DNA of 64,000 bases, from positions 1-64,000 of the forward strand of contig JAPONY010000051.1 in NCBI GenBank assembly GCA_026713705.1. Direction: 5' to 3'. The stretch comes from Gammaproteobacteria bacterium (GTDB taxonomy: Bacteria > Pseudomonadota > Gammaproteobacteria > Poriferisulfidales > Poriferisulfidaceae). Below are positions 4,387 to 54,333 of the stretch, in pieces. Made by a program: the position numbers and the translations under genes. Position 1 is the first letter of the stretch. Each line of letters starts with the position of its first letter. Under the pieces are notes generated by a model. The model saw only the letters and a list, made by a program, of their open reading frames with translations. It was not told the origin of the DNA and made no database searches.

Positions 4387-5345
4387 TCCTTGAATGACTG
4401 CTCTAGTAAGTCGAGATCGATGGCGCCGGCGGAAAAGGAGCGACCCGTCCGGATATTGTTGACCAAAACCCGGGCCGGGCTGAACAGCATTGGATCGATC
4501 TGAAAGAAGTCGTGGTCATGCTCCTTGAAAACTTCAGCGAAGGGTTTGCCGTAATCTCGGGACGTACTGCTGGGCAACTCCGTGGCGAGCCGTTCCGCTT
4601 CCTCGTCGCTGGACTGGACGAACAGCTTGATCTGTCCACCGAACAGGATGGCGTCGTTGGTGCGGCCCATCATCCGCACCATGTCCGAATTATCCAGCGG
4701 CGGAATCGGCGCGCTGCCAATGCCGTCCACCACGCAGTTCAGGTCGAAACCCAATTCATGTGCCTTGTGCAGCCCGACCTCCAAGACCCGGCCGACCACC
4801 TGTACCGTTCCGGCGAGGCTTGTGGTGGGGGTCAGAATTAAAGTCAGGTTGTACGGTTCGACTCCACAATCCTGGCAGATTTTCTCGCGCACCGCGCGTG
4901 GCGGCACCTTGTCGACTTCCATCACCAACGTCGTGTAGATATATGAATCCTTGTAGCCGATCTTCTCGAACAAGTCTTCCTTTTGTGCCATGCTGCGGGC
5001 CGGTCCGGAACCCAGCGCATGAAACCCGCTTTCCTTGTCGCTTAGAGACCATCCCGCGTATTGGCTTGCCAGACAGGCCAAGACCGGATGCTGGGGGTGG
5101 ACGTGTATGGTGAGGGGCCACTCTGCCGACCCGCCATAGGTCAGCGTGGCCTGTCCCATCCCGCCCATGCAGATTTCCGCAATTTGGCGCCCTGCCTCGA
5201 TGCCTCCGATCGCATTAATGCCGGCATCCACCACCCAGACCCCTTCTTCCGTAGGGGATTCCACGATGCGCAGGCTCCATGCCTGATCAGACAGAGAGCG
5301 AACTAGAGGTTCAACCTGGCGGTTGAGGCTAATGGGCAACTTCAT
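4383..5345 (-). CDS. mch: Methenyltetrahydromethanopterin cyclohydrolase
   Basis: MCH-like sequence including GGIEAGRQIAEICMGGMG and FAEVFKEHDHDFFQIDPMLFSPA; overlaps the downstream ATP-grasp gene by 4 nt. Confidence 0.9.
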   Translation of the reverse strand: MKLPISLNRQVEPLVRSLSDQAWSLRIVESPTEEGVWVVDAGINAIGGIEAGRQIAEICMGGMGQATLTYGGSAEWPLTIHVHPQHPVLACLASQYAGWSLSDKESGFHALGSGPARSMAQKEDLFEKIGYKDSYIYTTLVMEVDKVPPRAVREKICQDCGVEPYNLTLILTPTTSLAGTVQVVGRVLEVGLHKAHELGFDLNCVVDGIGSAPIPPLDNSDMVRMMGRTNDAILFGGQIKLFVQSSDEEAERLATELPSSTSRDYGKPFAEVFKEHDHDFFQIDPMLFSPARVLVNNIRTGRSFSAGAIDLDLLEQSFKE

Positions 5346-6498
5346 GGGCTAGGCATCCGGAGGAAATCGAGTGGAGGGAATCGGGGTTTAGGAGTGTCAG
5401 AATTTGATGGTGAAGATCCTGCAGGCCGGCATGAGCCTCGTCTGCATCGTGGTAATGGCCTCGCACGGTACACAGGGGTTGCCCGGCATCAATACTGGTT
5501 TTGGCATTTGGCAGGTCGGCAGTTCCGGCCGGCCACGCCCAATTTTCCGCGCCAGCAACCGGGCATGGAGCATAGATGACCTGCATTCCCCGAACGTTCT
5601 GCCCCCGTTCTGAGGCGGGAGCCAAGTGTCCGTCCGGGTTTCCGGTGAGGCAGGTTTCAATGTGCGCGCTCATGTAGTCGGAGGTAAAAGAATCCGCGTA
5701 AAGCTCGCAGGTGGCCACCAATCTTGGATTAAGATCCACAACTTGTACTTCTTTCTTGGAATCAACTATAAAATCAATACCGCAGAGGCCGAGAAGATCA
5801 AGATCGCGTGCTAGGATTTGTGCCATCCATTGTACTTGCTTGAAAACCTTAGGCAAAACCTTGATCGGGCCGATTGCACCACTCCAGGCATAGGGCGCGT
5901 CTGCCTTTCCGGAAGGCAATAATTCGCTGATTCCGACGACTTGGGCTTTCCTTCCCCCTGCCAAGAACAGTGCAGAATGCGGTGTGCCGGCACATTGGCG
6001 CTGCCAATAGCAGGAACTCGGACTGTCTGGGGTTCGCGAGGCCGGATGCACGTGACATCCTCCCGAGCGCCCTTCTTTCTTGACCAGCCAGCCTTTCAGA
6101 GAATCCGGCAGCTGGCTTCGGGTTTCCGGGCCGGCTATCCCAAGTTTCGCAAAACGGTCCGACAACCGTACAGGGTCGGCACACAGGCGAATGGCATCGG
6201 GGGCATTGCCCAGAACCTGGGCGGAGGCTTGCAATCGCTCCAGCAGTTCCGGATGGGCTTCGAAGCCGGAACCGTAGGCCAGCAGATCCCCTGGACGGCT
6301 TCTCTTGGAGATGATTTCCAGGATTTCCAAAGGGAACTGGCCGTCTTCCAGAGTTGCTTGAGCAACCTCGTCGGCGTTCAGATCCGCATCGAGAAATCCA
6401 TCGACCGCCACAACCGGGCGCTGACGATGCATGGCCGCTTGCGCATGCGCCCGCGCCGAAGCAGACAGCAGGAACAGTTTTCTGCTATTCCGCGGCAC
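5329..6498 (-). CDS. ATP-grasp domain protein of the H4MPT cluster (GTG start VPRNSRKL...)
   Basis: ATP-grasp-like motifs (GLCGIDFIVDSKKEVQVVDLNPRL); located between mtdB and mch with short overlaps. Confidence 0.7.
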   Translation of the reverse strand: MPRNSRKLFLLSASARAHAQAAMHRQRPVVAVDGFLDADLNADEVAQATLEDGQFPLEILEIISKRSRPGDLLAYGSGFEAHPELLERLQASAQVLGNAPDAIRLCADPVRLSDRFAKLGIAGPETRSQLPDSLKGWLVKKEGRSGGCHVHPASRTPDSPSSCYWQRQCAGTPHSALFLAGGRKAQVVGISELLPSGKADAPYAWSGAIGPIKVLPKVFKQVQWMAQILARDLDLLGLCGIDFIVDSKKEVQVVDLNPRLVATCELYADSFTSDYMSAHIETCLTGNPDGHLAPASERGQNVRGMQVIYAPCPVAGAENWAWPAGTADLPNAKTSIDAGQPLCTVRGHYHDADEAHAGLQDLHHQILTLLNPDSLHSISSGCLAHEVAH

Positions 6499-7384
6499 AC
6501 TGACGCGCCACTTCAAAGGCGTGTTCGAAATGGAAATAGACCGGTTCTTCCGTTTCCCGCATCTGTTGGAGCAACCGATGCTGGGTTTGATATTTCACAT
6601 TTCCGATGGCAAGCGCCCCAATGCCGACAGCCCCGCTCTGGGAATCCTCGATCGGGCTGGCGTCGTCCATCACCCCGAGGCCGTGAATGCCGGAAGGTGG
6701 GACTGCATTGACATCCGCCGCCACCTTCAGTTTCGGGGCATTCGACATCTGCTCCTTCGACACCAATTGGATCCCGGCAGCGGCCGATGCGAACACGACA
6801 TCGGTATCGCCCAGCAACTGGTCGAGCTGGTCGTTGGCTTCTCCGTCAACGGCCGGATCCGCACCGTATTTCTGGTTGCATAACTCAGCGGCTTGGTCGC
6901 TTTTCTCTTTCTTGCGTCCCAAGATGGTGACGCGGGCTCCCGCATTCGCAGCAATCACCGCTGCTGCCGAACCGACCGGTCCGGTCCCGCCAAGTGCCAG
7001 GATGCGCTGTCCCGAAAGCTCCGTGCCATGTGTATCGCGTAATGCTTTCTCAACTTTAGCGACCATGGCCGCTGCCGTCGTGAATGCCCCGCTGGGATCG
7101 GCAAACGCCGAGACCACGAACGGAGGAACCATGGATTTCTGGCAAACTTCCAGCGCTTCCATGGCTTGGTGCATGTCGCGCCCGCCGATAAACAAGCCGG
7201 TGCGCTTGACGCCATTCGGCCCCCGCGAGAAGATCGCGTCCTCCACCAGACCCTTAACTTCGTCAGTTTCCACCTGGATATAGGGGATACAGGCATCCCA
7301 GCCTGCGTCGTAGGCCATGTTGGCATCAAACGGACTCAGGTTCTTCGCCGAAGTCAGCATATGCAAAAGGTATTTTTTCTCCAT
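6485..7384 (-). CDS. mtdB: NAD(P)-dependent methylene-tetrahydromethanopterin dehydrogenase
   Basis: MtdB-like sequence with Rossmann motif ALGGTGPVGSAAA and HMLTSAKNLSPFDANMAYDAG. Confidence 0.92.
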   Translation of the reverse strand: MEKKYLLHMLTSAKNLSPFDANMAYDAGWDACIPYIQVETDEVKGLVEDAIFSRGPNGVKRTGLFIGGRDMHQAMEALEVCQKSMVPPFVVSAFADPSGAFTTAAAMVAKVEKALRDTHGTELSGQRILALGGTGPVGSAAAVIAANAGARVTILGRKKEKSDQAAELCNQKYGADPAVDGEANDQLDQLLGDTDVVFASAAAGIQLVSKEQMSNAPKLKVAADVNAVPPSGIHGLGVMDDASPIEDSQSGAVGIGALAIGNVKYQTQHRLLQQMRETEEPVYFHFEHAFEVARQCAAE

Positions 7385-7397
7385 GAAATTTCCTTCA

Positions 7398-8402
7398 TTA
7401 GGTTTTTGTTTGAGATCCCAGTTCTTTATAGTCGGATCCCGTTTCCTCCATTCCTGCCATGACGGTCAATTGATGGCCATGGTTGGAGGCGCCGACGATT
7501 CGGAGTTCCAGTCCTACATCAATAGGCTGAAGCTTCCGAACGAGTGCATGAGCCTGAGTTTCGCTGTCCGTCAAGATGAATCCAGTCGGACCCCAGGAAC
7601 TTTGCCCAACCCCTTGAAAACCAAGTTGTTTCGCTTGTTTCAGGAGGTGCCTGATATTCAGGTGTGAAAATTGCCCGCCTTGGGCAGGGGCGAAATAATC
7701 TCCGATCTTGTCCTGCAGTTCGCCGATCCCCTGGGCGAACCCTGACAAATCCGATTCCAGCAACGATGGCAGGATGCGCATGAGGATCAGGCGGCATAGA
7801 TGCGCCGCGTCCGAAGCGGGAAATTCGGGAAGAGTGCCAAAAGCCCGACGTTCTGCCTCTCCTGATAGTCCTTCTTTGTCGCTTCGCGCCATCAACAGCA
7901 CGATCCGCCAATGTTCAGGGAAAGGATGCCGAGCAATAATCGGCGGGAGCTGGTTGCCGTCCCCTCTTCCGCCATCGACCAGGAAACCGCCCTGCTCGAA
8001 CGAGCCAATACCGATCCCGGAACGTCCTCCCCGGGCAAGTTTCTCCGCAATTTCGTAGGGAGTCAGGCCCAATTTGAACAGGTGATTGATGGCGGTGCCG
8101 ACGGCCAGGGCCATCTGTGTGCCAGATCCTAGCCCCGCATGCTGCGGGATCGCCTGGCGAACCTCGATACTGACCGTATCCTCGCACCCCATCATGCTCA
8201 GCAGGCGCTGGGCATATTTGAGTGCGCGCTCTGAGTCAGGTCCTTTGGCGGAGAATTCCTTGCTGCGGGCACATTCCACGCAGGTCTGGATTTCATTCAG
8301 GCTGACCCCGACTCCGCCGAAACGCCGCCCGAGGTCTCCTTGGATATCCAGGAAACCGAGATGCAGACGCGCTGGCGCCTCGATTTGGATGATTTGATCC
8401 AC
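7398..8402 (-). CDS. Beta-ribofuranosylaminobenzene 5'-phosphate synthase (beta-RFAP synthase)
   Basis: GHMP-type N-terminus ARLHLGFLDIQGDLGRRFGGVG and QHAGLGSGTQMALAVG; in the H4MPT cluster. Confidence 0.9.
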   Translation of the reverse strand: MDQIIQIEAPARLHLGFLDIQGDLGRRFGGVGVSLNEIQTCVECARSKEFSAKGPDSERALKYAQRLLSMMGCEDTVSIEVRQAIPQHAGLGSGTQMALAVGTAINHLFKLGLTPYEIAEKLARGGRSGIGIGSFEQGGFLVDGGRGDGNQLPPIIARHPFPEHWRIVLLMARSDKEGLSGEAERRAFGTLPEFPASDAAHLCRLILMRILPSLLESDLSGFAQGIGELQDKIGDYFAPAQGGQFSHLNIRHLLKQAKQLGFQGVGQSSWGPTGFILTDSETQAHALVRKLQPIDVGLELRIVGASNHGHQLTVMAGMEETGSDYKELGSQTKT

Positions 8403-8444
8403 CTGTCGGCTTGGGAATGGTTGGCCGAAAAAGTATACAGGAAA

Positions 8445-12302
<3,858 letters not shown>

Positions 12303-12366
12303 GAATGCGATGGTTGGCGGATCGGTTCGTGCTGGCAGGCAGGGAACTCTACATCGTATTATCCCG

Positions 12367-12372
12367 TATAAT
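12367..12372 (+). promoter_or_regulatory. Candidate -10 box of ssrA
   Basis: TATAAT about 16 nt before the mature tmRNA 5' end. Confidence 0.5.
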
Positions 12373-12387
12373 GACCAGAGATGACTT

Positions 12388-12744
12388 GGGGGTGACCTGG
12401 CTTCGACGGCGGTTACTGAATCCAAGGCGCATGCCGAGGCGGCAACGACCTCGTAAAAAAGGGTTGCGAAAAAATAGTTGCCAACGACGACAACTACGCA
12501 CTAGCCGCTTAATCCCGGTTAGTCATCCTTTCGGGAGATGCTTGTGGACCCCGATATGGATGTCGACTACACAAGATCGCCGTTCGGTCTGTCTGGAGCT
12601 GAAAGGTTAAATTCAACATGCAGGCTGGTGGTCATCGGGCCTTGTCCGTCGGGTGTTGACCATAAGACTAAAGACGGTGCTAAGCATGTAGGGCCGAAGA
12701 GGATGAACTGCCGGACGCGGGTTCGATTCCCGCCACCTCCACCA
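12388..12744 (+). ncRNA. ssrA: Transfer-messenger RNA (one-piece tmRNA)
   Basis: 5' GGGGGTGACCTGGCTTCGACGGCGG and 3' GGTTCGATTCCCGCCACCTCCACCA; tag reading frame GCC AAC GAC GAC AAC TAC GCA CTA GCC GCT TAA encodes (A)ANDDNYALAA. Confidence 0.97.
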
Positions 12745-12746
12745 CG

Positions 12747-13493
12747 TTATTGCTTTCTCGCTGCTTCAGCAGCTATATGACCAGCAAACTCTGTCACAAA
12801 AGTACCCAAGCTCGTCATTTCGCCCATTTCCGAGTATTTGCCGCTGTCCACAGCGTCCCGGGGAGACGTCAGCAGACACGCGGAGGAATACAACTGCTCC
12901 TGGATGAGTTTTTTACACAAGATGTGATATCGACCCGCATAGGTGGTGTCGCGGAAATCGTCGAAAACCGGGAAATGGTGAGACTGGTTCTTAACCGGCG
13001 TACGTGATTTGGGCGCATCTTCCAGCAACATCAACCAACCAAGGAAAGGACGCGGCTGTTCCCCGAAAGATCCTTCCCGGTATGCGGTCCATAGATCTAC
13101 GGCGGATCCGATTGCCTCTTCCGTTCGATTGTTGAAATTATTGCCGAATGAAGGTCCGACTTGTGATTTGAACTCCAGGGCCGCGATTAATCGATCATTC
13201 CGAAATACCAGAAAATCCCAAAGCTTGGTGGGCCGAAAGTAGCCAGGAAGAGTCAAGACACGGCCTTCATGCAATACGACCGCGTCGGACAGCCCATTTC
13301 GATAGACCAGTTCTTCCATTAAGGCCACAAAACCGTCCATGTTTTTCCCGGCCGTCACACCGGCCCGCTCCCCTTGGTCGGCTTTTCCGGTACTAATTTG
13401 CCGCTGTCGAGCCTTCTCGCGGCTAGCCCAGAACACTTGAACAGCACGTCGGGCTTTGGGCTCGTAGTTCGCAAGATCAAGAGGCATGGTCAA
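12747..13493 (-). CDS. Type II restriction endonuclease, PaeR7I/XhoI-like
   Basis: Resembles the PaeR7I/XhoI family ([60 protein letters not shown]); paired with an adjacent adenine methyltransferase. Confidence 0.88.
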
Positions 13494-15182
13494 TCACCTT
13501 CCGTTAGTATCAAAAGCGAATCGTTCGGTCTTCTTTATTCCGTATAACTCAAAGACTGCTTGGTTGCGGCTATCGATATCCCCGCGTTCAATTGCAGTTG
13601 CGAGTTTTTTCCTCAGGTTTTTTGGCACGTCCTTCCAGAATGGGATACGAATGCGTCTCAAGTATTGCGCCTGGAAGCGAAGGTATCCGCCACGCATTTT
13701 CGTCGAGTAGGCACCTACGAATAATTTAGCAATACCGGAAAGCAAAACAGCCTGCAATATCCGGAGGTTCCATTCGTCTGATGTGATGTAGTAAAGGTTG
13801 TGGTGGGGATAGTACCGCCCATCTTCATAAACGACATGAGCCTCCCCTTTGATGTCTGGAATAAGAAGTTTCGGTTTGCTGGCCAAGGTCGGGTCGATGC
13901 GGTCGATCGTCCGGTACCAATTATTGGGATTCTTTTGTGAGATATGACGTTTTCTCAATGCGTCCCCGAAGCCGTTCAGGTAGGCACTCAGCTTGGGATA
14001 GCGACCTAGGGAAACCAAATTGCCTTCGTCGTCGAAAGGGTTGATGACACCGTCTCCACGCCAGCGTACTTCTCCCGAGCGAATGTCGCGGGTGGTCACG
14101 AGAGGCAATTTTCGGTCTACTTCCACGTCAAGTTCATCGAATGGCGCAACATAGAGCTTGTCTGCGCCTGTAGCGACTCCGATGCCGACTTTACAGCCTG
14201 CCTCCTCTAGTGTTGGAAATTCGTGTTCAAGACGGCGCACGACCTCCAAACGATCCAGTGAATCCAGAATCCAAGGATCGGCCCCAGTTGCGACCGCTGA
14301 GATCTCCTCGATATCTCCGCGTTTTGGGGCTTTTTTCGCCAACATTTCTCTGGCTAAAGCCGCCAGATTGCCCGCTTCGATCTCGGGCCTACGGGTCACA
14401 CGGGTCGAACCTGCTGGAGCCCTGGAGATCACGGTTATTGCCGGATAAGCGGTCACTTCGGAATGGAATGCCGGGGTGTCCACCATGTCTACATAAAACT
14501 TCAAATGGTGGCTCTCGCCCACCCACTTGCGTAACGGGGCTCCGTAGCGGTTTTTCATCCAGCGATCGGAACAAATGAACCCCAATGTCCCGCCCTCACG
14601 CAAGAGAGATAGAGATTTTTCTATAAAGGGGATGTAAATGTCTGCACGGTCATGGATGGTTCGGAATCGATGCCGATACTCTGTCATCAATTCGGCGGGA
14701 ATTGCTTCATGCCGAATATATGGGGGATTTCCAACTACATAATGAAAACAATCGGGAAGGGTTTCCAGCAGAAAATCGCCTTGAATCAGCCAGCTTTCTA
14801 ATAAATCAGACCGAGTTTCCAGAGAGAAGCCCCCTTGGGCAAGAAGGTCATCCAGTCGGTTTCGGGTTTGTTGAAAAGAATCGTTGTGCAACTCGACCGC
14901 ACGAATCGCGTCCGTCAATTGCGGCAGAGTGCCCTCTCGATTACGCCAAGCCTGCAGAAGGCGTTCTACAGCCGCAAGAAGAAAATCCCCATTGCCGAAA
15001 GAAGGCTCAAGGAGACACTGCTTGTAGAGTGTCTTGTGGGCAGCATATCCGGTTAGATCAAGTATAAAGTCGACTACTTCGCGTCGCGTAAATACGGCCC
15101 CCCTCTCCTCCGTATTGCTCATGGCCATCCTTGCCACGGCTGCTTCGGTGGGTGACAAACCAGACAAAGACGCTTGACGCAC
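13494..15182 (-). CDS. Type II adenine-specific DNA methyltransferase, partner of the PaeR7I-like enzyme
   Basis: N6-adenine MTase signature NPPYIRHE and N-terminal [34 protein letters not shown]-binding motif. Confidence 0.88.
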
Positions 15183-44878: not shown

Positions 44879-46213
44879 TTATTCCTGATCAGGTATAGCA
44901 GCCCAACATTGAATCCATCTTTGTGTATCTGTACTTTCACCTGAATCAGCGCCATTAATTTCCACGTATAAATCCGGAGACCACTTTTGTTCCCATACTT
45001 TAATCGAAACCTTTTCTCCTGAGGCTTGTTCTTTTTCCGCCATCAGACTACACACCCACGTTTCATCCTTCGCTTGTGGACTGCGGAATCCATTCTCTTT
45101 TACATCAAAACCATCTTTGTACATTCTTTGCAACAACCCATTACGCATCTCAGCCTTTTCCCCGTCCATCCTTATTGCTGAGTCGGGAACCTCTTCCTGC
45201 ATAATTTCTTCTAAATTCCATGGAATATCTTCGAATCGAGTCTTGTCAGCATTCCATCGTATCCCGAGCCCAGACATCGTATTCCCTTTTGCGCGTTCAA
45301 TGAAGTACGCTAAGCTCGTTTGATTGCTGCTCTCGCGCAAACTTTTGATTCTTTCCAGCCATACACGCAACAAGTTTGCTAACCAGTCAGGATCAGCCGT
45401 CTCTTCTGGCGGTATCCCCCGATAGTCATTCCAAATCAATTGGGCAAATGCATTTAGCGGATGTCCGTGTTCTTCATACCATTTTTGCAAATCTCCTGTA
45501 CTATCAGCCGGTCTTCCATCGCTACTCTTGCGCCACAATCTTGGCTCCCGATATATTCTTTCCAGAATGTCTTCAAATTCCTTCAATAATTTCAGTTCGG
45601 GCATCCAAATTCTTTGCTTAGGGTGTTGTTGATGTGTCATCCACTGTACACATGCATCCCAAATAGCCAGCATGCAATCCACGCTATTGGGAGGGATTGG
45701 GCCTGGCTCGATTAGTGCATATCTCCATTGCTCATACCCCTTTCCTCCTGTCCCCGATACTTCTTTTAAGAACTTTTGCAAAGTCTTAATCCTTATGTAA
45801 TTGTGCAGTGACTGGAATCTTTTGTAATACTCGCTCAATACTCGCTTTGTTCTCTTGTCCATTTGCCCAAAAAGGCGGCTCAAATTGTGAGTGCGTAAGT
45901 TCGATTCTTCATCACTTAATAGGCATTCAATAGTTACCCCTCTTTCCATTGCAATCATGAATTTGAAACTCTGTTCAATTCCTGAATAGCCTGCAGCGAC
46001 AAATGCCCACCAGCTTGCTATTTGCGTTCCAGAATGTAGGTCCCATCCCCTTTCAGTTTTTTCGAATGCTTCTTGGCTTCTCTTTTGAGCACTTTTTAAT
46101 CGTTGAAATATTTCCCGCTGTTCATCCTGGGTCATCACATTTCCATTTTTTCTTTTACCTTTCGTCCTCTTGTGACGCGTGATCTTCAAGAGTATCGTCT
46201 TGAAAATTCTCAT
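44879..46213 (-). CDS. Uncharacterised protein, last gene of the Type III-like defence operon
   Basis: 444-codon ORF; 4-nt ATGA overlap with the preceding Res gene; no family recognised. An alternative start at MTQDEQREIF (46135) is possible. Confidence 0.7.
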   Translation of the reverse strand: MRIFKTILLKITRHKRTKGKRKNGNVMTQDEQREIFQRLKSAQKRSQEAFEKTERGWDLHSGTQIASWWAFVAAGYSGIEQSFKFMIAMERGVTIECLLSDEESNLRTHNLSRLFGQMDKRTKRVLSEYYKRFQSLHNYIRIKTLQKFLKEVSGTGGKGYEQWRYALIEPGPIPPNSVDCMLAIWDACVQWMTHQQHPKQRIWMPELKLLKEFEDILERIYREPRLWRKSSDGRPADSTGDLQKWYEEHGHPLNAFAQLIWNDYRGIPPEETADPDWLANLLRVWLERIKSLRESSNQTSLAYFIERAKGNTMSGLGIRWNADKTRFEDIPWNLEEIMQEEVPDSAIRMDGEKAEMRNGLLQRMYKDGFDVKENGFRSPQAKDETWVCSLMAEKEQASGEKVSIKVWEQKWSPDLYVEINGADSGESTDTQRWIQCWAAIPDQE

Positions 46214-49200
46214 ATTGCAGCACGCATGTTGGCCTGCGCCAACACTTCGATTGAATCATTAATTTCAGATACCTCTTCGACCATGCGATAACACCATCTA
46301 CCATGACGATCATCCGCATTGACAGCTCCAACCCAACGTTCTGCAGCTGCCCTCTTGATCTCTTTCAAGTCATCATAAAACAACTTAGTCTCCAAAATTA
46401 GAATCAATTCTGCATCAGTACACTTCAGCCGAACTAAGAAATCTGGAATGTAGTCATGCATTTCGCCGTTGTGAAAATAAGGAATGCCGAAGCCCATCCC
46501 CTCATTCTTAGCGAATGCCAAAACCTTGGGGTGGTTATCCAAACAGTAGGCCGCTTTCCGTTCAAGCCCGCTGTCCGGCACCACCGCATTGATGTGACTC
46601 TTGAGTACAGGATAAGGCTCCCGTTTGGAGTAGAAATCGACATCGCCCGTTGATCCCATTTCACGCTGCCGCTCACAGCGCGGCAACTCAGGAATATCTC
46701 CGGCAGACGCATCCGGCTTAATGTATTGACACAAAGTTTCAACAATCCATCCATAGTAAGGGGCAAGGAAAACATCTTTTTTATCAGAAGGATGAGAGGC
46801 AGTGACTTTCCGTTCAATGTACGCGCACACTATTGGGAACAATTGCTGGAACAGAATGTTTGGAGGCAATTGGCAGCTAGCCTCTTCCGCATAGAACTTG
46901 GCTAGGGTTCCGGTGAGCTCATAGGCTCTTTGCTGCAGGCGGGTTTGACGAAAGCTTTTTAGATCTACTCCGCGCAATTCCCCGGGTCCGCTGATCGAGG
47001 GGATTCCCGAATTGGATGGCAGGCCGGCTTTCATCTGTACCTCTGGCGGGATTTTCTCGGCATTGATACACACGGGGGGTATCTTCTTCATATCGCAACT
47101 TAGCCCAATTCTTATGCTTTGGTAATACCCTTCCACACGCGGAAAACTGATTGCCAGGTCTTGTCTGTCTGGTAGGGCATGGATGTGGTGCCGTGCAACT
47201 TTCTTCGGAGAGTCCCCTCCTTTTTTCACTTTGACCGTAAAGGCAGATAGCGGAACACCCAGTACTGTCGCGATTTCCTCGGGCAAGTGTCCGTTTTTGC
47301 CTATTTCGTAGGAAGTGCGCCGCAAGCCCCGTCCAATCACCTGTTCGCATAGCAACTGCGACATGAATGGGCGCAATCCGATTATGTGCGTCACCGTATT
47401 GCAATCCCAACCTTCGGTCAGCATCCCAACACTCACGATGCAACGGACGTCACGGCCTGGCGGATATTTCTCACGCCCCAGTTTGTCGGCCAATTCCACG
47501 AAACCCTCAGGGTATTGCTCTCTGCCTTGCCTGTCACGAGGCCAATTACCTCGGCCAATCGTGTCGAGCGTGTGCCGCATCCAACGGGTCTCGTCGGTTC
47601 TCGCGACGCCACTCTCAATCTCCACCTGCATATCCGAGTACACGCAGATGGTGTTTTCTTGATTCAGAGCATTCTTAAGTTCGGGCAGGCCAGCCCGTGG
47701 GATGGTCGGCGTTGGAGGCTGATCTTCGGCAATCCAGTCATACACGATGTTTGCCAGTTTTTTCGTCTTGCAGATGACGATCAGAACCGGCTGGTACGAA
47801 TCTTCCAGTTGACCCAGTTCCTGATGCAGGTCCTGCCACATGCCTCCCATCATGGCGATTGGAGTATGAGCGTATTTGAGGGTTGCTTCCGGCTTAGCGC
47901 CTGCCTTCTTCCCCCCACGCTCGGTCGCCGTGAGCTTTGGCAGTATCCATTTCCAGATGTTGAAATAACCAGGCACGGTGGCTCCGCTGGAGTCGCGTGC
48001 CGCAAGTTGCGGGATTTTCACCAGGCCAGATTCGATGGCGTCCTGCAAACCGAAGCTGCTCGCAGTCCATGGAAATATGCGGTTGGTGTTCGCACCTGCC
48101 TGACCCAAAAAGTACGGTGTAGCAGAAAAGTCCACGCAGAAATTTATGCCACGTAGATTATTGATCTTATCCAGCCCATCTACCCAGGTGGTCGCCTCTC
48201 TATAGTAGTACTCGGCGGCCTCGTCCTCTTCGTCGATAATGCCGTTACCTTCTCCAGAGGACTGTAGTCGGTAGGCATGGTGCGCCTCGTCATTGAGCAC
48301 GAGAATGTTCTTCTTGGAGCCGAGTTCCTTCTCCAATACGCGCCTCACCAAGGCGGCATCAGTTTCCATGTATTTCTCCGATTCAACCTCGACTTTTTTC
48401 AAACTGCCGCTTGAGTCGCGATGTTCGTTCCGCACTCGCAGCAGATTCAGCGCCTGTTGCTGGCGAAGGTGGTCCTCAGTCATGTATCGTTTGCCACGTG
48501 CCGTCATGGCCTTGTCGCCAATGAAAACAGTTTCCTTTACGAGAACGCGCTGACCCGCCTTGACCACCTTGCTGCCCCCCTGAGTGCTACGTGGCTCGAA
48601 TATGTGCCAGTTGGTAGTAAAAAATTTCCCTTTCGTCAAATCAGCCATCATGGCTGGTGGAACCAAGTCTCGGGTTTGGTAGATGCTCGCGTCTCCCCTT
48701 TGCGGGTTCAATTCTGCCAAGCGATCTCGGATAGTTACATTCGGACACACTACCAGGATGGCATCCGAAAACCTCGTGTCACCCTTGTTTGCCACCTTGT
48801 TCAATATGCTCCATGCCGTCAGCATGGCCATCACCGTAGTCTTGCCTGTGCCTGTGGCCATCTGGCAACAATACCTTTTGAAAGCCTTGAATCCGTCCCG
48901 CTGTTTTTTCTCCCCCATCTCCTCAAGCGGAATGTTGATGCCCTGCTGAAAATCCAGTCTGGCCTCGGTCAAGAAGATGATGGCTTCGGCCGCTTCCAGT
49001 TGGGCGAAGAACAACGGCTGCTCACGCCCTTCGCGCCGCCAGTATTTCAGCAGGTCCATGGTCGTGCGGCTCACCCCCCCCTCACCCTGCAGGGCATGGG
49101 GGCGCCAGTCAGCCAATCGTTGCCGAATCAGGGCGACTTGCTCTAATTTTATTTCATAACCGACATCCTGTTCCTCGTCGTCGTCTGCCACTTTTCCAGT

Positions 49201-49335
49201 CGGCAGGTACATGTAGGTCGGTTCGCGCCGGCTGTTGATTAACTCTGGTGGCTCGTGTTCATGGATTTTCCAATGCCGCGAGGGCTCTTCGTAGGGAGAG
49301 CTGATAATCGGCTCATTGACTTCGTGTGCAGGCAT
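46210..49335 (-). CDS. Type III-like restriction endonuclease/helicase (Res)
   Basis: Walker A MATGTGKTTVMAM, DEAH box LNDEAHHAYR, FSATP, motif VI EQVIGRGLRR, C-terminal PD-(D/E)XK-like IPDFLVRLKCTDAELILILETK. Confidence 0.9.
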   Translation of the reverse strand: MPAHEVNEPIISSPYEEPSRHWKIHEHEPPELINSRREPTYMYLPTGKVADDDEEQDVGYEIKLEQVALIRQRLADWRPHALQGEGGVSRTTMDLLKYWRREGREQPLFFAQLEAAEAIIFLTEARLDFQQGINIPLEEMGEKKQRDGFKAFKRYCCQMATGTGKTTVMAMLTAWSILNKVANKGDTRFSDAILVVCPNVTIRDRLAELNPQRGDASIYQTRDLVPPAMMADLTKGKFFTTNWHIFEPRSTQGGSKVVKAGQRVLVKETVFIGDKAMTARGKRYMTEDHLRQQQALNLLRVRNEHRDSSGSLKKVEVESEKYMETDAALVRRVLEKELGSKKNILVLNDEAHHAYRLQSSGEGNGIIDEEDEAAEYYYREATTWVDGLDKINNLRGINFCVDFSATPYFLGQAGANTNRIFPWTASSFGLQDAIESGLVKIPQLAARDSSGATVPGYFNIWKWILPKLTATERGGKKAGAKPEATLKYAHTPIAMMGGMWQDLHQELGQLEDSYQPVLIVICKTKKLANIVYDWIAEDQPPTPTIPRAGLPELKNALNQENTICVYSDMQVEIESGVARTDETRWMRHTLDTIGRGNWPRDRQGREQYPEGFVELADKLGREKYPPGRDVRCIVSVGMLTEGWDCNTVTHIIGLRPFMSQLLCEQVIGRGLRRTSYEIGKNGHLPEEIATVLGVPLSAFTVKVKKGGDSPKKVARHHIHALPDRQDLAISFPRVEGYYQSIRIGLSCDMKKIPPVCINAEKIPPEVQMKAGLPSNSGIPSISGPGELRGVDLKSFRQTRLQQRAYELTGTLAKFYAEEASCQLPPNILFQQLFPIVCAYIERKVTASHPSDKKDVFLAPYYGWIVETLCQYIKPDASAGDIPELPRCERQREMGSTGDVDFYSKREPYPVLKSHINAVVPDSGLERKAAYCLDNHPKVLAFAKNEGMGFGIPYFHNGEMHDYIPDFLVRLKCTDAELILILETKLFYDDLKEIKRAAAERWVGAVNADDRHGRWCYRMVEEVSEINDSIEVLAQANMRAAI

Positions 49336-50993
49336 TACAGGTTGAAATGGTCCGCGACAGTATCCAGGGTCTCAATCACATTGGGATGGATTTCATCAGG
49401 CAGCATGGCCGAGGCAATCTCATCGTAGCGGGTGTAGGAAAAACCATGCAGCCCGGCCCGATCAAGAACAAGCGGCAGAATGTCGCGGCGGGCCTTCAGG
49501 GCTACCAGCGTAGCGTGATCGCCCAGAGGGTCATTGATCGCACTTTCGGGCAGGATGCCCTCCAAGGCTTTCTTCATGGATTGAATGGAGGCCAGGGGTG
49601 AATTCTCGCCCGCTGCCATCCCCACAAATCGAGCAAGAGAGTCAGGGTGCACCAAATAACTCTCAATTTCGTAACGAGCCCAGCACAATTTCAGAAGATT
49701 GCCTCCAGCCGCCTCCTGTCGGGCTGGAATGTTTTCATTACCATCCCGGTCAACGACCTGCACTCCTCGCATTCCCTCCTGAACCAGTAAAAGTGCATCG
49801 AAATGCTCTTGAGCCTTAATCCCTTTCCCTTGGCTTCGCATTTCAAACACCACCGGCTTCCAAAACGGTCGTTGCAGGAAATCCGCCAGTGGATGTTCTA
49901 GGGACGACGCCCATTCCATCAGGATGTTCAGGTCGGTCCGCCCTTCGACATAGAGGATTCGCTCTTTTTCCTGAGCCAGCAAAATATCCGTATTCGAAAG
50001 AATGGAAAGCGAGCGAATCAGTGACGACTTACCATCTTCGCTTGCCAATTTTCGAGGGTGCCCCAGCATAGCAAGCAGGTCTCTTGGCTCAACCGCATTG
50101 ATGACCGCGTCGGAGTGAGTGGCGATGATAAGTTGGGAATTGGATTTCCGCGCGATTTTCTTCAACTGTCCATATATTGTGTCCTGCAGAATCACATGCA
50201 GGTGCGCATCCGGCTCATCCAATAACAGGACACTACCCTTTTGCTGAATCAGAAAAGTCAGCAAAAGCAGTGCCTGAAGAAACCCGCTGCCTGCCGAATT
50301 GATGTCAAGCCTAACTCCATCGGGACTCTGCCGGTACTCGGCAAGGATATGCGCACCAGTATCATCCGGCGGCAGCAACTCGTAACCGAACATGCGCTCA
50401 ATTAAGCCTGTCAGACAATCCCATGCGTCTTGGTCGCTGCTGATTTCGGCTAAGAGGTTGCGCAAAACATCGCCGGATTTCCCTTGCCCTAGCAATTGGT
50501 TGATTTTCGGCCTCTGGTATACAGGCTCATCGACCCCTAGACCACTCACGGAGGGAACAAAAAACACCTGGTAAGAATCCTTCGCTTTCTTGAGAATTTC
50601 AAGTGTCACATCCTTGGACGGTCGGACATACACCTGTTCACTGCTGTCTCTCTCCACCTCTATGCAGATTGACCCCATATCGGTCGTAATGCCTAGTTCG
50701 ATCCTGTTCTGACCATTAAATTTCCCATCACTCCACAGTAGGTCAAAGTTCCGCAACGGGACGGAATAAAATGTCTGCCGCGTGACGGGAGCCTTGGCGT
50801 AGAAGCCTCCATGTTTCTGGAAATCGTTCAGTTCAAACCAACGCTCCAGCGCCAGCGACCATGTCGCGATGGCCTGAAGCAAAGTCGTTTTTCCGGAGTT
50901 GTTGGGTCCGGCAACAGCAAGATTACCTTCAAGATCAAATCTTTCCTCATGGAAACACTTGAAATTTCGAATGACGGCTTGGGTGATTTTCAT
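49335..50993 (-). CDS. OLD-like AAA (ABC-type) ATPase with TOPRIM-like C-terminal region
   Basis: N-terminal IRNFKCFHEERFDLEGNLAVAGPNNSGKTTLLQA, Walker B SVLLLDEPDAHLH, H-loop IIATHSDAV, then ERILYVEGRTDLNIL (TOPRIM-like). Confidence 0.85.
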   Translation of the reverse strand: MKITQAVIRNFKCFHEERFDLEGNLAVAGPNNSGKTTLLQAIATWSLALERWFELNDFQKHGGFYAKAPVTRQTFYSVPLRNFDLLWSDGKFNGQNRIELGITTDMGSICIEVERDSSEQVYVRPSKDVTLEILKKAKDSYQVFFVPSVSGLGVDEPVYQRPKINQLLGQGKSGDVLRNLLAEISSDQDAWDCLTGLIERMFGYELLPPDDTGAHILAEYRQSPDGVRLDINSAGSGFLQALLLLTFLIQQKGSVLLLDEPDAHLHVILQDTIYGQLKKIARKSNSQLIIATHSDAVINAVEPRDLLAMLGHPRKLASEDGKSSLIRSLSILSNTDILLAQEKERILYVEGRTDLNILMEWASSLEHPLADFLQRPFWKPVVFEMRSQGKGIKAQEHFDALLLVQEGMRGVQVVDRDGNENIPARQEAAGGNLLKLCWARYEIESYLVHPDSLARFVGMAAGENSPLASIQSMKKALEGILPESAINDPLGDHATLVALKARRDILPLVLDRAGLHGFSYTRYDEIASAMLPDEIHPNVIETLDTVADHFNL

Positions 50994-51310
50994 TGGGAAA
51001 TTTCTTTGCGGTGAAGTATTCCGTCCGGACTTTCTGCAGCATACTCTGATCCATCAACCTTTTCGCAAGACACCGTATCCGGATTCTTCCACGGACTCAC
51101 CACAACATCCCGACCTAGACTTTGAGGTGTCGCAATATGGAATTCGTTTGATGCGATTTGACGTGCTTTGTTCTCATCGCTCGCCCGCACGATTAATTCC
51201 CCCTTGAATGTACTTGCGTTCCAATTCCTGCTCGCAGGGTCGATAGGCATCAACCTCCAGATGAATTTATCCTGCGCTATTTGCTGTGCCATCTGCCTGC
51301 CTCCTTCCAA
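50990..51310 (-). CDS. Small uncharacterised protein of the defence operon
   Basis: 106-codon ORF with 4-nt overlap with the ATPase gene and 4-nt gap from the methyltransferase gene; protein-like sequence WRLMPIDPASRNWNASTFKGELIVRASDENKARQIASNEF. Confidence 0.7.
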   Translation of the reverse strand: MEGGRQMAQQIAQDKFIWRLMPIDPASRNWNASTFKGELIVRASDENKARQIASNEFHIATPQSLGRDVVVSPWKNPDTVSCEKVDGSEYAAESPDGILHRKEISQ

Positions 51311-51314
51311 CTGC

Positions 51315-53999
51315 CTATTTTGCAGTAACCTTTTTGATCACCATCAGCTCATTCCCCCGGTCGTCGATCACCTTGACTGCGACCTGCTCCCCAGCAATAA
51401 ATGGAGCACTGACAGACCCCCGTAAGTGATCCCAAACAGTGTCGTCAAAATCTGCTTTCACTGCCTTGCGGATTTTCTCCCACGCGCCCGTACGCGGAAA
51501 AAACACCTGCCCGGCACGGAAACATTGCCCATCGTAGTCGGGATCCAGCATCCAGCAAGGCACATCGTCGCCTTGTCGTGAATCGACTTCCATGTTCGCT
51601 GGATCAAAAACGTCCAGCCCCAGCAACTCCACTTGCCATAGCTGATCTCCCTCCTCTGTCTTTTCGTCCACCTTCCTCAGTTCAATGTCGGGCAACCCGC
51701 ATACTGAGAAAATTTGACTGGAACGCATGTTCTTTAGGAGATCGGACATCACCACATCGGTGCTGGCTTGAACATACGTGGATGGTAAATCGAGACTTTC
51801 CTCACTGTGTTCAATGGTTTCGCGGGCGGCAGGCTCTATCGCAAATGCGATCACCAGCAATTGGGCGTAATCTTTATTGCGCGCCTCTCGTCCAGCATCC
51901 ACCACCGACCGCTCACTAATAGCCCCGTTGGCAGGGCCGAAAACAATAGCGAGCAATTGGCTGTCGTCGGCAGATTCGGCTTCGGCATGCAGATTCAAGG
52001 ATTTTGCGGGCGGGCGGATGTTTTTTATCTTGAAAGTCTTATTGTCCGGCAAGCGTATGGTTGGCACCAGTCTCAATATCTCGATCATTCGCTCGATATG
52101 ATCTCTTTCGCCCTCTACATCCACTCTGTTACCAGTCTGCTGTGGTTCGACGCCCTCTACTTCATCCTTCGATGCGACATCAGGCGCAACAGGTATCGGC
52201 AAAACAGCTTCCACGCAAAAAGGACCGCTAATTCGGGTCACTTTCCGATCAACTTCCGGTTGGTCCACCAGAACTTCCTCGACTGGAGGCTCATCGTTAG
52301 CAATGGATTTCAGCGTGATGCGTGGCACAATGCCCCCCACCTCTTCGCCTTTTGCGTTTTTCTTTCGTATGTACACGAAACCAGCGCCAGGCCCGCGCTG
52401 TCCATCCTTCAGCTGATAGTAGGGATACGTGGCGGTCAGCAGGCGCTGGCGAGTCAGAGCTAACGGAACTCGGGAAATGTCGCTGGTAATCCAGCGCCGC
52501 CCCCATTTTTCCGCCACAAAAGCGCTGGTGCCTCCACCGCAAGTGGGATCAAAAATAAGGTCCCCTGGGTCAGTGGTCATCAGCAAGCATCTCTGAATGA
52601 CCTTAGCGGATGTTTCGACAACATATTGTTTGTCGCTCGCATATCCTGCGATTCCCGTGTCCGGCCACATGTTGTTAATTTTTTTGCAGGGAAAGTCGTG
52701 CAGATAGCGGATATATCCAAGATTTTTTCCGACAATGCCAATCCGCCTTGCTGCAATCAGTTTGTCCATGCCTAATCGACCGGTTTTCCAACTGCCTTTA
52801 GAAATCTCGAACGTCCGCCCTTCAAACTCAATGGAATATTGTCCCCCTTTTGATGCGGTCTGGCTTCGCAAGTCGCCGTATCTGAACACCCGACACTCAT
52901 CGGGCAATGCCTTTCGCCCTTCTCTTTCTTCTTTCGTCATAGCGCGGCGAGTACCGTCCTGTAATTCAACGTGTCTATACGCGCCATCTGGTTCCATAGC
53001 CTTTCTCAACCAGATCTTTCGAGTCTTGACTTTATCTATATCTTTCGCAAACCAAACGAGATAATCCCCGGTGGTTTCCAAGTTCTTGTTGCCTAAACCT
53101 GAAGTGGTCGCATAGCTGATTAAACTGACGAAATTCTCCCGACCGAATACCTCATCCATGATGTTGCGGACGAGATGCACATTCTCGTCTGAAATCTGGA
53201 CAAAACAGGAGCCAGACTCTGTTAGCAGGTCCCTCGCTAAAAACAGACGGTCCCTCATATAAGTTAGCCAAGAATGCGTGCCTAACTCCCATGTATCCCG
53301 GTATGCCTGAACCATTTCCGGTTCGCGGCTGATGTTGTCGTCATCCCCGTCCTTTACTTCCCGATTTCGAACAAACGGCTGGAAATTACTTCCGTACTTC
53401 ACTCCGTAGGGCGGGTCCATGTAGACCATCTGCACCTGCCCTCCCATATTTTCATACTCCAAGAGTGAATTCATTATCTGGAGGGAGTCTCCGAGAATCA
53501 ACCGATTCTGCCAGCCGTTCATGTGCTCGTATGCGCCGCGGATTTTCTCGCCGATGGACTTCTCCCCTTCCCCAAACAGATCCAGCGTCTGCTGCCGGTC
53601 TCGCTTATGCCGCTTCAAAGTTTTGAGGACAGCCTCCGTGGAAAGTCGCTCATGCACGAAGAGAGGCAAGGTCGGGACGGAAATCTTTTCGCGCTCAGCC
53701 TTGCCCGCCCAATCCAAGAACGGTCGCGACATGTTTTTCAGTTTCTCTGCGGCTCGCCTAGCCTCGTTCAAACTATCGCTGTCGATAATCTCGCCTATGA
53801 GCCGCTCACCCTCGCTTCGAGCCTGCGCCTCATCCCAAGCAAGCGTTGGAGCTAATGAAGAATCGTAACGATACGATTTCGGTCCCTTTTTCTTCGAAGA
53901 CGGGAACATATCCTGAGAACCGCCCTCCGGCCTCAGTAAGGCTTTCTTGTCGCCATGACGATAGTCGCGTGGCGGCGGCTTCGGGGTTGACCTAGGCAT
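51315..53999 (-). CDS. Type III Mod-like DNA methyltransferase
   Basis: Beta-class MTase order: VYMDPPYGVKYGSNFQPF followed by LIFDPTCGGGTSAFVAEKWGRRWITSDISR; start taken as MPRSTPKPPP. Confidence 0.9.
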   Translation of the reverse strand: MPRSTPKPPPRDYRHGDKKALLRPEGGSQDMFPSSKKKGPKSYRYDSSLAPTLAWDEAQARSEGERLIGEIIDSDSLNEARRAAEKLKNMSRPFLDWAGKAEREKISVPTLPLFVHERLSTEAVLKTLKRHKRDRQQTLDLFGEGEKSIGEKIRGAYEHMNGWQNRLILGDSLQIMNSLLEYENMGGQVQMVYMDPPYGVKYGSNFQPFVRNREVKDGDDDNISREPEMVQAYRDTWELGTHSWLTYMRDRLFLARDLLTESGSCFVQISDENVHLVRNIMDEVFGRENFVSLISYATTSGLGNKNLETTGDYLVWFAKDIDKVKTRKIWLRKAMEPDGAYRHVELQDGTRRAMTKEEREGRKALPDECRVFRYGDLRSQTASKGGQYSIEFEGRTFEISKGSWKTGRLGMDKLIAARRIGIVGKNLGYIRYLHDFPCKKINNMWPDTGIAGYASDKQYVVETSAKVIQRCLLMTTDPGDLIFDPTCGGGTSAFVAEKWGRRWITSDISRVPLALTRQRLLTATYPYYQLKDGQRGPGAGFVYIRKKNAKGEEVGGIVPRITLKSIANDEPPVEEVLVDQPEVDRKVTRISGPFCVEAVLPIPVAPDVASKDEVEGVEPQQTGNRVDVEGERDHIERMIEILRLVPTIRLPDNKTFKIKNIRPPAKSLNLHAEAESADDSQLLAIVFGPANGAISERSVVDAGREARNKDYAQLLVIAFAIEPAARETIEHSEESLDLPSTYVQASTDVVMSDLLKNMRSSQIFSVCGLPDIELRKVDEKTEEGDQLWQVELLGLDVFDPANMEVDSRQGDDVPCWMLDPDYDGQCFRAGQVFFPRTGAWEKIRKAVKADFDDTVWDHLRGSVSAPFIAGEQVAVKVIDDRGNELMVIKKVTAK

Positions 54000-54102: not shown

Positions 54103-54333
54103 ATGACCCTGCTAGCCACAGTCCGCAAGCATCTTGGAATCAAAGGCGGCGATGTCATGCTGCTGAATGGCCATGGTGGAGAAATAACCCTAAGGTCCGG
54201 TATAACCATTGAAATCCAGCACTACAGCGACGAACAAATTGCGCAATGGGACGCCAATGACCAACTGGAACCACAGGAGAAAGCCCGCATACTAGACACT
54301 GTATCCCGTCTCAAGAGTAAAACGGTTTCCTAA
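54103..54333 (+). CDS. AbrB/MazE-type (SpoVT-like) DNA-binding protein, possibly N-terminally incomplete
   Basis: Frame upstream of ATG reads ...ILLVSTQNQ-MTLLATVRKHLGIKGGDVMLL, resembling the AbrB-fold 'STKGQxTLPxxVRxxLGIKxGD' pattern, but no ATG/GTG/TTG start precedes the STQNQ strand. Confidence 0.5.
   Translation: MTLLATVRKHLGIKGGDVMLLNGHGGEITLRSGITIEIQHYSDEQIAQWDANDQLEPQEKARILDTVSRLKSKTVS

Follow-up and report, generated by a model that had tools for sequence, protein, structure and literature searches.

Does a run of tightly packed defence genes amount to one multi-component system, or to a smaller conserved unit with local companions? This question is raised by a five-gene block at positions 44,879-53,999 of the 64,000-nucleotide stretch of gammaproteobacterial DNA analysed here (the window). 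The initial annotation read the block as a Type III-like restriction-modification (R-M) operon whose genes are separated by gaps or overlaps of 4 nt or less, and took this coupling to imply a single system. Inspection of the open reading frames (ORFs) bears out the layout, as five intact, coupled ORFs all lie on the minus strand (Table 1). The p106/ATPase and Res/444 junctions are 4-nt overlaps (ATGA), the ATPase/Res junction is a 1-nt overlap (TAATG), and the listed TTG start of p106 leaves a gap of 4 nt after the Mod stop. The ATG at 51292, with AGGAGG before it, is the more likely start of p106; on this prediction the protein would have 100 rather than 106 residues and begin 22 nt past the Mod stop. 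The ORF of Mod is open to 54,035, and alignment with homologues agrees with the annotated start at 53999.

Table 1. Genes of the block, in operon order, with positions in the window.
Product	Position	Strand	Basis
Mod, Type III-like N6/N4 DNA methyltransferase	51315..53999	-	Pfam, PADLOC, solved relatives, motifs
p106, small orphan protein, 100 aa	50990..51292	-	ATG 51292 with AGGAGG upstream (106 aa if TTG 51310)
OLD-type ABC-ATPase with TOPRIM nuclease, 552 aa	49335..50993	-	Pfam, motifs, AF2 model, Foldseek, conserved context
Res, SF2 helicase with C-terminal PD-(D/E)XK nuclease, BPTD_3080 family	46210..49335	-	NCBIfam, Pfam, motifs
444-aa accessory protein without recognised fold	44879..46213	-	homologue in one congener

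The block is an insertion, probably acquired horizontally. It is flanked by ilvB on one side and an AcrB-type RND pump gene on the other, and its G+C content is 43-55% compared with about 60% in the flanks. Two congeners carry the ilvB-RND site without the block, with the genes about 0.75 kb apart in one (G004) and separated by about 1.5 kb holding a sterol-methyltransferase-like gene in the other (G002), so the original view of an inserted island stands. In a third congener (G003), Mod-ATPase-Res-444 forms an insertion of ~9.6 kb adjoining aspS; in this genome 11.5 kb, with the block inside, separate aspS from a conserved marker ORF downstream, compared with 1.9 kb in G000, G001, G002, G004 and G005. 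The block therefore has two sites within the genus, each of them empty in other members. At the ilvB-RND site of G004, 58 aa of a Res C-terminus remain (L213:9093-9266; 62% identity to its counterpart in the window), a sign that a related R-M system once occupied the site in this operon-less genome. Beside the region upstream of Mod, a small plus-strand ORF at 54103-54333 resembles a decayed AbrB-type antitoxin by eye, an identification we rejected as Pfam gave no match; it has a counterpart in G004.

Mod matches the Pfam N6_N4_Mtase family (1.3e-24) and the PADLOC MTase_III profile (3.7e-154), and its three best solved relatives are all Mod-type enzymes (the 6k0w Mod, EcoP15I Mod 4zcf and Mbo45V 7dsu). 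The motif DPPY at residue 207 precedes the SAM motif DPTCGGGT at residue 496. In a variability profile, residues 301-450 have a mean identity to the window protein of 0.33-0.39, compared with 0.61-0.80 in the flanking catalytic stretches; the N-terminus and residues 601-700 are likewise variable. The variable central region (residues ~300-450) is probably the target-recognition domain, such that Mod combines an N6/N4-methyltransferase core with an internal recognition region, as is characteristic of Type III R-M.

Res belongs to NCBIfam family NF046055 (BPTD_3080), scoring 922.6 bits against a curated cut-off of 800; it also matches Pfam ResIII, and Pfam RE_endonuc below that profile's cut-off. 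Its SF2 helicase motifs (ATGTGKT at 160, DEAHH at 349, SATP at 404, VIGRGLRR at 666) and C-terminal PD-(D/E)XK residues (PDF at 964, ETK at 982) are again those of a Type III enzyme. They are kept across the Res clade described below, with PDF...ETK conserved wherever the C-terminus is present. Alignment with the Res of phage P1 (EcoP1I) is confined to 48 columns in the helicase motif V-VI region, and none of the papers searched names BPTD_3080. Judged by its sequence features, the core of the operon is a Type III R-M pair of Mod and a BPTD_3080-family Res; Type III enzymes methylate one strand of an asymmetric site and need ATP and two inverted sites to cut, and cleavage of this kind would be expected from what is known of the family.

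The gene between p106 and res was initially described as an OLD-like ATPase with a TOPRIM-like motif, and it qualifies as an OLD family member. The protein matches Pfam AAA_15/AAA_21 and has an N-terminal ABC-ATPase with intact Walker A (residue 29), Walker B (256) and H-loop (ATHS, 291) motifs, followed by a C-terminal TOPRIM domain whose acidic E350 and DxD residues D415/D417 are nearly invariant in the alignment; the embedded copies that were aligned retain both their TOPRIM and their Walker residues. Its AF2 model (mean pLDDT 85.8) has the Thermus scotoductus OLD nuclease (6p74) as top Foldseek match (E 7.8e-12), aligned along the chain with a high rmsd, suggesting that the domains are probably oriented differently in the two proteins.

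How far the five genes belong together can be judged from their relatives. In a scan baited with the ATPase across 85,462 species, one genome each, all eight non-self relatives of at least 45% identity (L046-L053) lie between mod and res, with gene ends mostly overlapping, although some of these loci end at contig ends within mod or res. Only one of the other 72 ATPase loci kept, all of 43% identity or less, has this position (L060). Judged by record titles, this set covers Pseudomonadota, Myxococcota, Acidobacteriota, Planctomycetota, Verrucomicrobiota and Nitrospirota. In all, the order Mod-ATPase-Res was found in 15 operons from several phyla, most of them from metagenome assemblies.

Because an ATPase bait favours ATPase-bearing loci, searches baited with Res were added, covering genome searches, plasmids and IMG/VR. 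Within a supported Res clade that spans several phyla, the ATPase is present in seven of the 11 decidable members (G003, G009, G952, G912, G844, G857 and G1038); the locus of G995 ends at a contig end and stands outside the 11. In a Verrucomicrobiota sample the Res-baited search gave no match at its strict threshold, which also missed the partial Res of the sample's centre genome. The slot between mod and res is taken by a gene for a 273-aa protein of unknown function in G960 and by an IS200-type transposase in G1136, while mod and res are directly adjacent in a Mycobacterium avium plasmid and an IMG/VR contig (L239). Res is still full-length in the members without the ATPase and, as these make up four of the 11, the ATPase is presumably dispensable for restriction. 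In the Res trees, the four members fall inside or beside the OLD-bearing rows, a position that fits an old association followed by repeated loss or replacement.

The ATPase tree places 14 of the 15 embedded ATPases in one starred clade, together with a stray free-standing member (L054) that lacks the TOPRIM residue E350. The exception is L060 from Nitrospirota, where a Res of the clade is accompanied by an ATPase from a free-standing OLD lineage, in the same slot and with a 4-nt overlap to mod, indicating that an OLD gene has filled the slot twice. The OLD gene is thus a conserved but exchangeable third gene of the operon. Co-divergence as proof of a functional ATPase-Mod-Res complex proved weak after removal of close relatives: Mod and Res still co-diverge (r 0.76, 0 of 2000 permutations as high), but the ATPase loses significance against both Mod (r 0.43, 187 of 2000 as high) and Res (r 0.54, 106 of 2000).

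With slightly more confidence than doubt, we read the block as a horizontally acquired Type III R-M operon with an embedded OLD second-line effector and two lineage-specific additions. This reading builds on the observed gene content, motifs (the catalytic motifs of Mod and Res are complete), coupling, triplet conservation, slot exchange and insertion, and we infer from these the activity, silencing and triggering of OLD. Mod would methylate a site determined by its variable central domain, protecting the host, whereas the Mod-Res complex would travel along unmodified DNA that the PD-(D/E)XK domain of Res would cut. The OLD nuclease, made from the same message as Mod-Res, would remain silent while restriction works; an anti-restriction protein, nucleotide depletion or DNA ends made by Res are candidate triggers, on which OLD, released or activated, could serve as a second line by destroying DNA or some target in the host. 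Tying OLD in this way to the status of restriction is the reading we favour, by analogy with PrrC in EcoprrI and with the OLD/TOPRIM modules of BREX.

The main rival is a helicase-nuclease partnership like that of Gabija, in which OLD would be a routine partner of the Res helicase, processing or degrading the DNA ends that the helicase supplies, and would act neither as a guard nor as a suicide effector. The class 2 OLD protein GajA does act together with a neighbouring helicase, GajB, and the two are often encoded in overlapping frames (PMC6755086, PMC10568477), and the window OLD gene is likewise coupled directly to a helicase gene, a coupling that is conserved. Res, however, has a conserved PD-(D/E)XK nuclease of its own, clade members without the OLD gene retain a complete Res, and the Gabija helicases are SF1/UvrD-like rather than SF2, such that we consider this partnership rather unlikely.

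The contents of the mod-res slot in the wider family bear on a second alternative, in which OLD would be passive cargo, an unrelated stand-alone defence gene riding inside mod-res without a functional link. In NF046055 operons the space between the core genes holds nothing, Fic, BRO-N, NYN, GmrSD-N, DUF3800, LOTUS or unknown proteins, a transposase or a ubiquitin-like module; so many unrelated inserts, together with the existence of free-standing relatives of the ATPase, are what passive carriage would predict. The recognisable inserts, however, are mostly defence- or toxin-like, and one embedded ATPase clade has been kept in the slot across several phyla with mostly overlapping ends. This persistence, and the refilling of the slot by another OLD gene in L060, make passive carriage less likely, and we regard it as improbable.

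The genome of the window itself holds a second, distant BPTD_3080-type operon (L037, G000:C92:26001-46000, 4866-14584, minus strand), with genes for Mod, an NsnB-like ATPase, a 189-aa protein, multi-ubiquitin, E2, E1/JAB, DUF6527 and Res; the same gene run occurs at L043, where the contig ends within the ATPase and Mod is out of view. Together with the varied slot contents, L037 suggests that a restriction core with an embedded, exchangeable effector forms a pattern that goes beyond one example. As a tentative extension, which we hold possible but well short of probable, BPTD_3080 Mod-Res pairs may form a shared platform for restriction and sensing whose effector bay has a fixed place between the two genes; OLD nucleases, Fic transferases, nucleases of the GmrSD-like or NYN kind and a module for ubiquitin-like conjugation would be swapped there and stay silent until restriction fails, much as effectors are exchanged in retrons or CBASS. 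Several loci show related genes in other arrangements. At L066 and L123 the gene for an OLD-type ATPase that belongs to the window family (33-38%) comes immediately after E2, E1/JAB and DUF6527, with no mod-res nearby. At L202:7755-17500 the order is Res-Mod-ATPase-helicase, an OLD/NsnB-like ATPase (28% identical) following mod, and on a Synechocystis plasmid (L157) a Res relative is broken into several ORFs and genes for NYN and LOTUS-domain proteins lie between mod and res.

The two remaining genes have a much narrower distribution. For p106 we found no family match, and searches of 133 related genomes, plasmids, IMG/VR and the fetched loci gave no relative. The 444-aa gene has a sole homologue, 54% identical and likewise directly after res, in G003; neither 369 genomes of the class nor the remaining 13 operons with an embedded OLD gene, some of them truncated at contig ends, gave another. 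Its product has no family or PDB match and a poor AF2 model (pLDDT 42); an R-x4-H at residues 132-137 is reminiscent of HEPN RNases, a candidate assignment rejected as no profile supports it. A true five-gene system with p106 and the 444-aa protein as essential subunits, suggested by the coupling of all five genes and by a 444-aa gene that travels with the triplet in G003, is very improbable and was rejected for this lack of conservation. The expectation that all three extra genes accompany mod-res elsewhere thus holds for the ATPase, even though four members of the Res clade lack it, but fails for p106, seen nowhere beyond the window, and for the 444-aa gene beyond its one congener. Of the single system proposed from the coupling, the part that survives is a unit of three conserved genes, Mod, OLD ATPase and Res, to which p106 and the 444-aa gene are local additions.

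The suggestion that the operon is an under-described system is correct in part. The Mod, Res and OLD families are each already known, NCBIfam already has a name for the Res family, and the embedding of OLD/TOPRIM effectors within modification-based defence loci has been described (PMC12839542), as it has for effectors of R-M loci more broadly (PMC3710099). We found no published account of an OLD gene inside a Type III R-M operon in the literature outside work on ABC-ATPase conflict systems, where an earlier description is possible. The operons analysed here add a recurrent further context for OLD, inside Type III R-M operons of at least six phyla, and provide a natural experiment in which near relatives have the OLD gene, another gene in its slot, or none.

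Comparison with known systems sets the operon apart from each of them. Like the Type III systems EcoP15I and EcoP1I, it has a Mod in which DPPY comes ahead of the SAM motif and which matches EcoP15I Mod 4zcf by profile, and a separate Res with an SF2 helicase and a C-terminal PD-(D/E)XK domain; it differs in its divergent Res family (NF046055) and in the OLD gene. The classic two-gene order, mod followed directly by res, is absent, a feature of layout that does not decide the enzyme type. Most sampled members of the BPTD_3080 operons are res-first, about 31% identical, and have other genes or none between. OLD proteins are divided into classes 1-4, namely P2 Old, Gabija GajA, retron OLD and PARIS AriAB (PMC10568477); the window protein shares with classes 1-3 an ABC-ATPase and TOPRIM in a single chain, but no class is defined by a position in the mod-res slot. 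Membership of Gabija was rejected as the operon lacks a UvrD-like GajB, that of PARIS as OLD is one chain inside a mod-res operon rather than a self-standing AriA/AriB (the AriAB fusion profile scores only 63 bits), and that of MADS as the MAD3 ATPase profile scores 46 bits against a cut-off of 420 bits.

The closest parallels are in function. For the OLD/TOPRIM modules of BREX and BREX-related loci, a role as backup suicidal effectors has been proposed (PMC12839542), and there too an OLD-TOPRIM effector is recruited into a DNA-modification defence operon; the window core, in contrast, is Mod-Res, and none of the five proteins is a BREX core component (PglZ, BrxC/DUF499), which places the operon outside BREX and its relatives. 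EcoprrI carries PrrC, an embedded anticodon nuclease that acts as a second line once restriction has failed (PMC12707154, PMC3710099), and both loci hold an extra ATPase-effector gene inside R-M. Whereas PrrC belongs to a Type Ic system and is an RNase of the ABC-HEPN type, the window protein is an ABC-TOPRIM protein in a Type III system with a putative guarding role, and through it the idea of guarded restriction becomes directly testable beyond Type I R-M and BREX.
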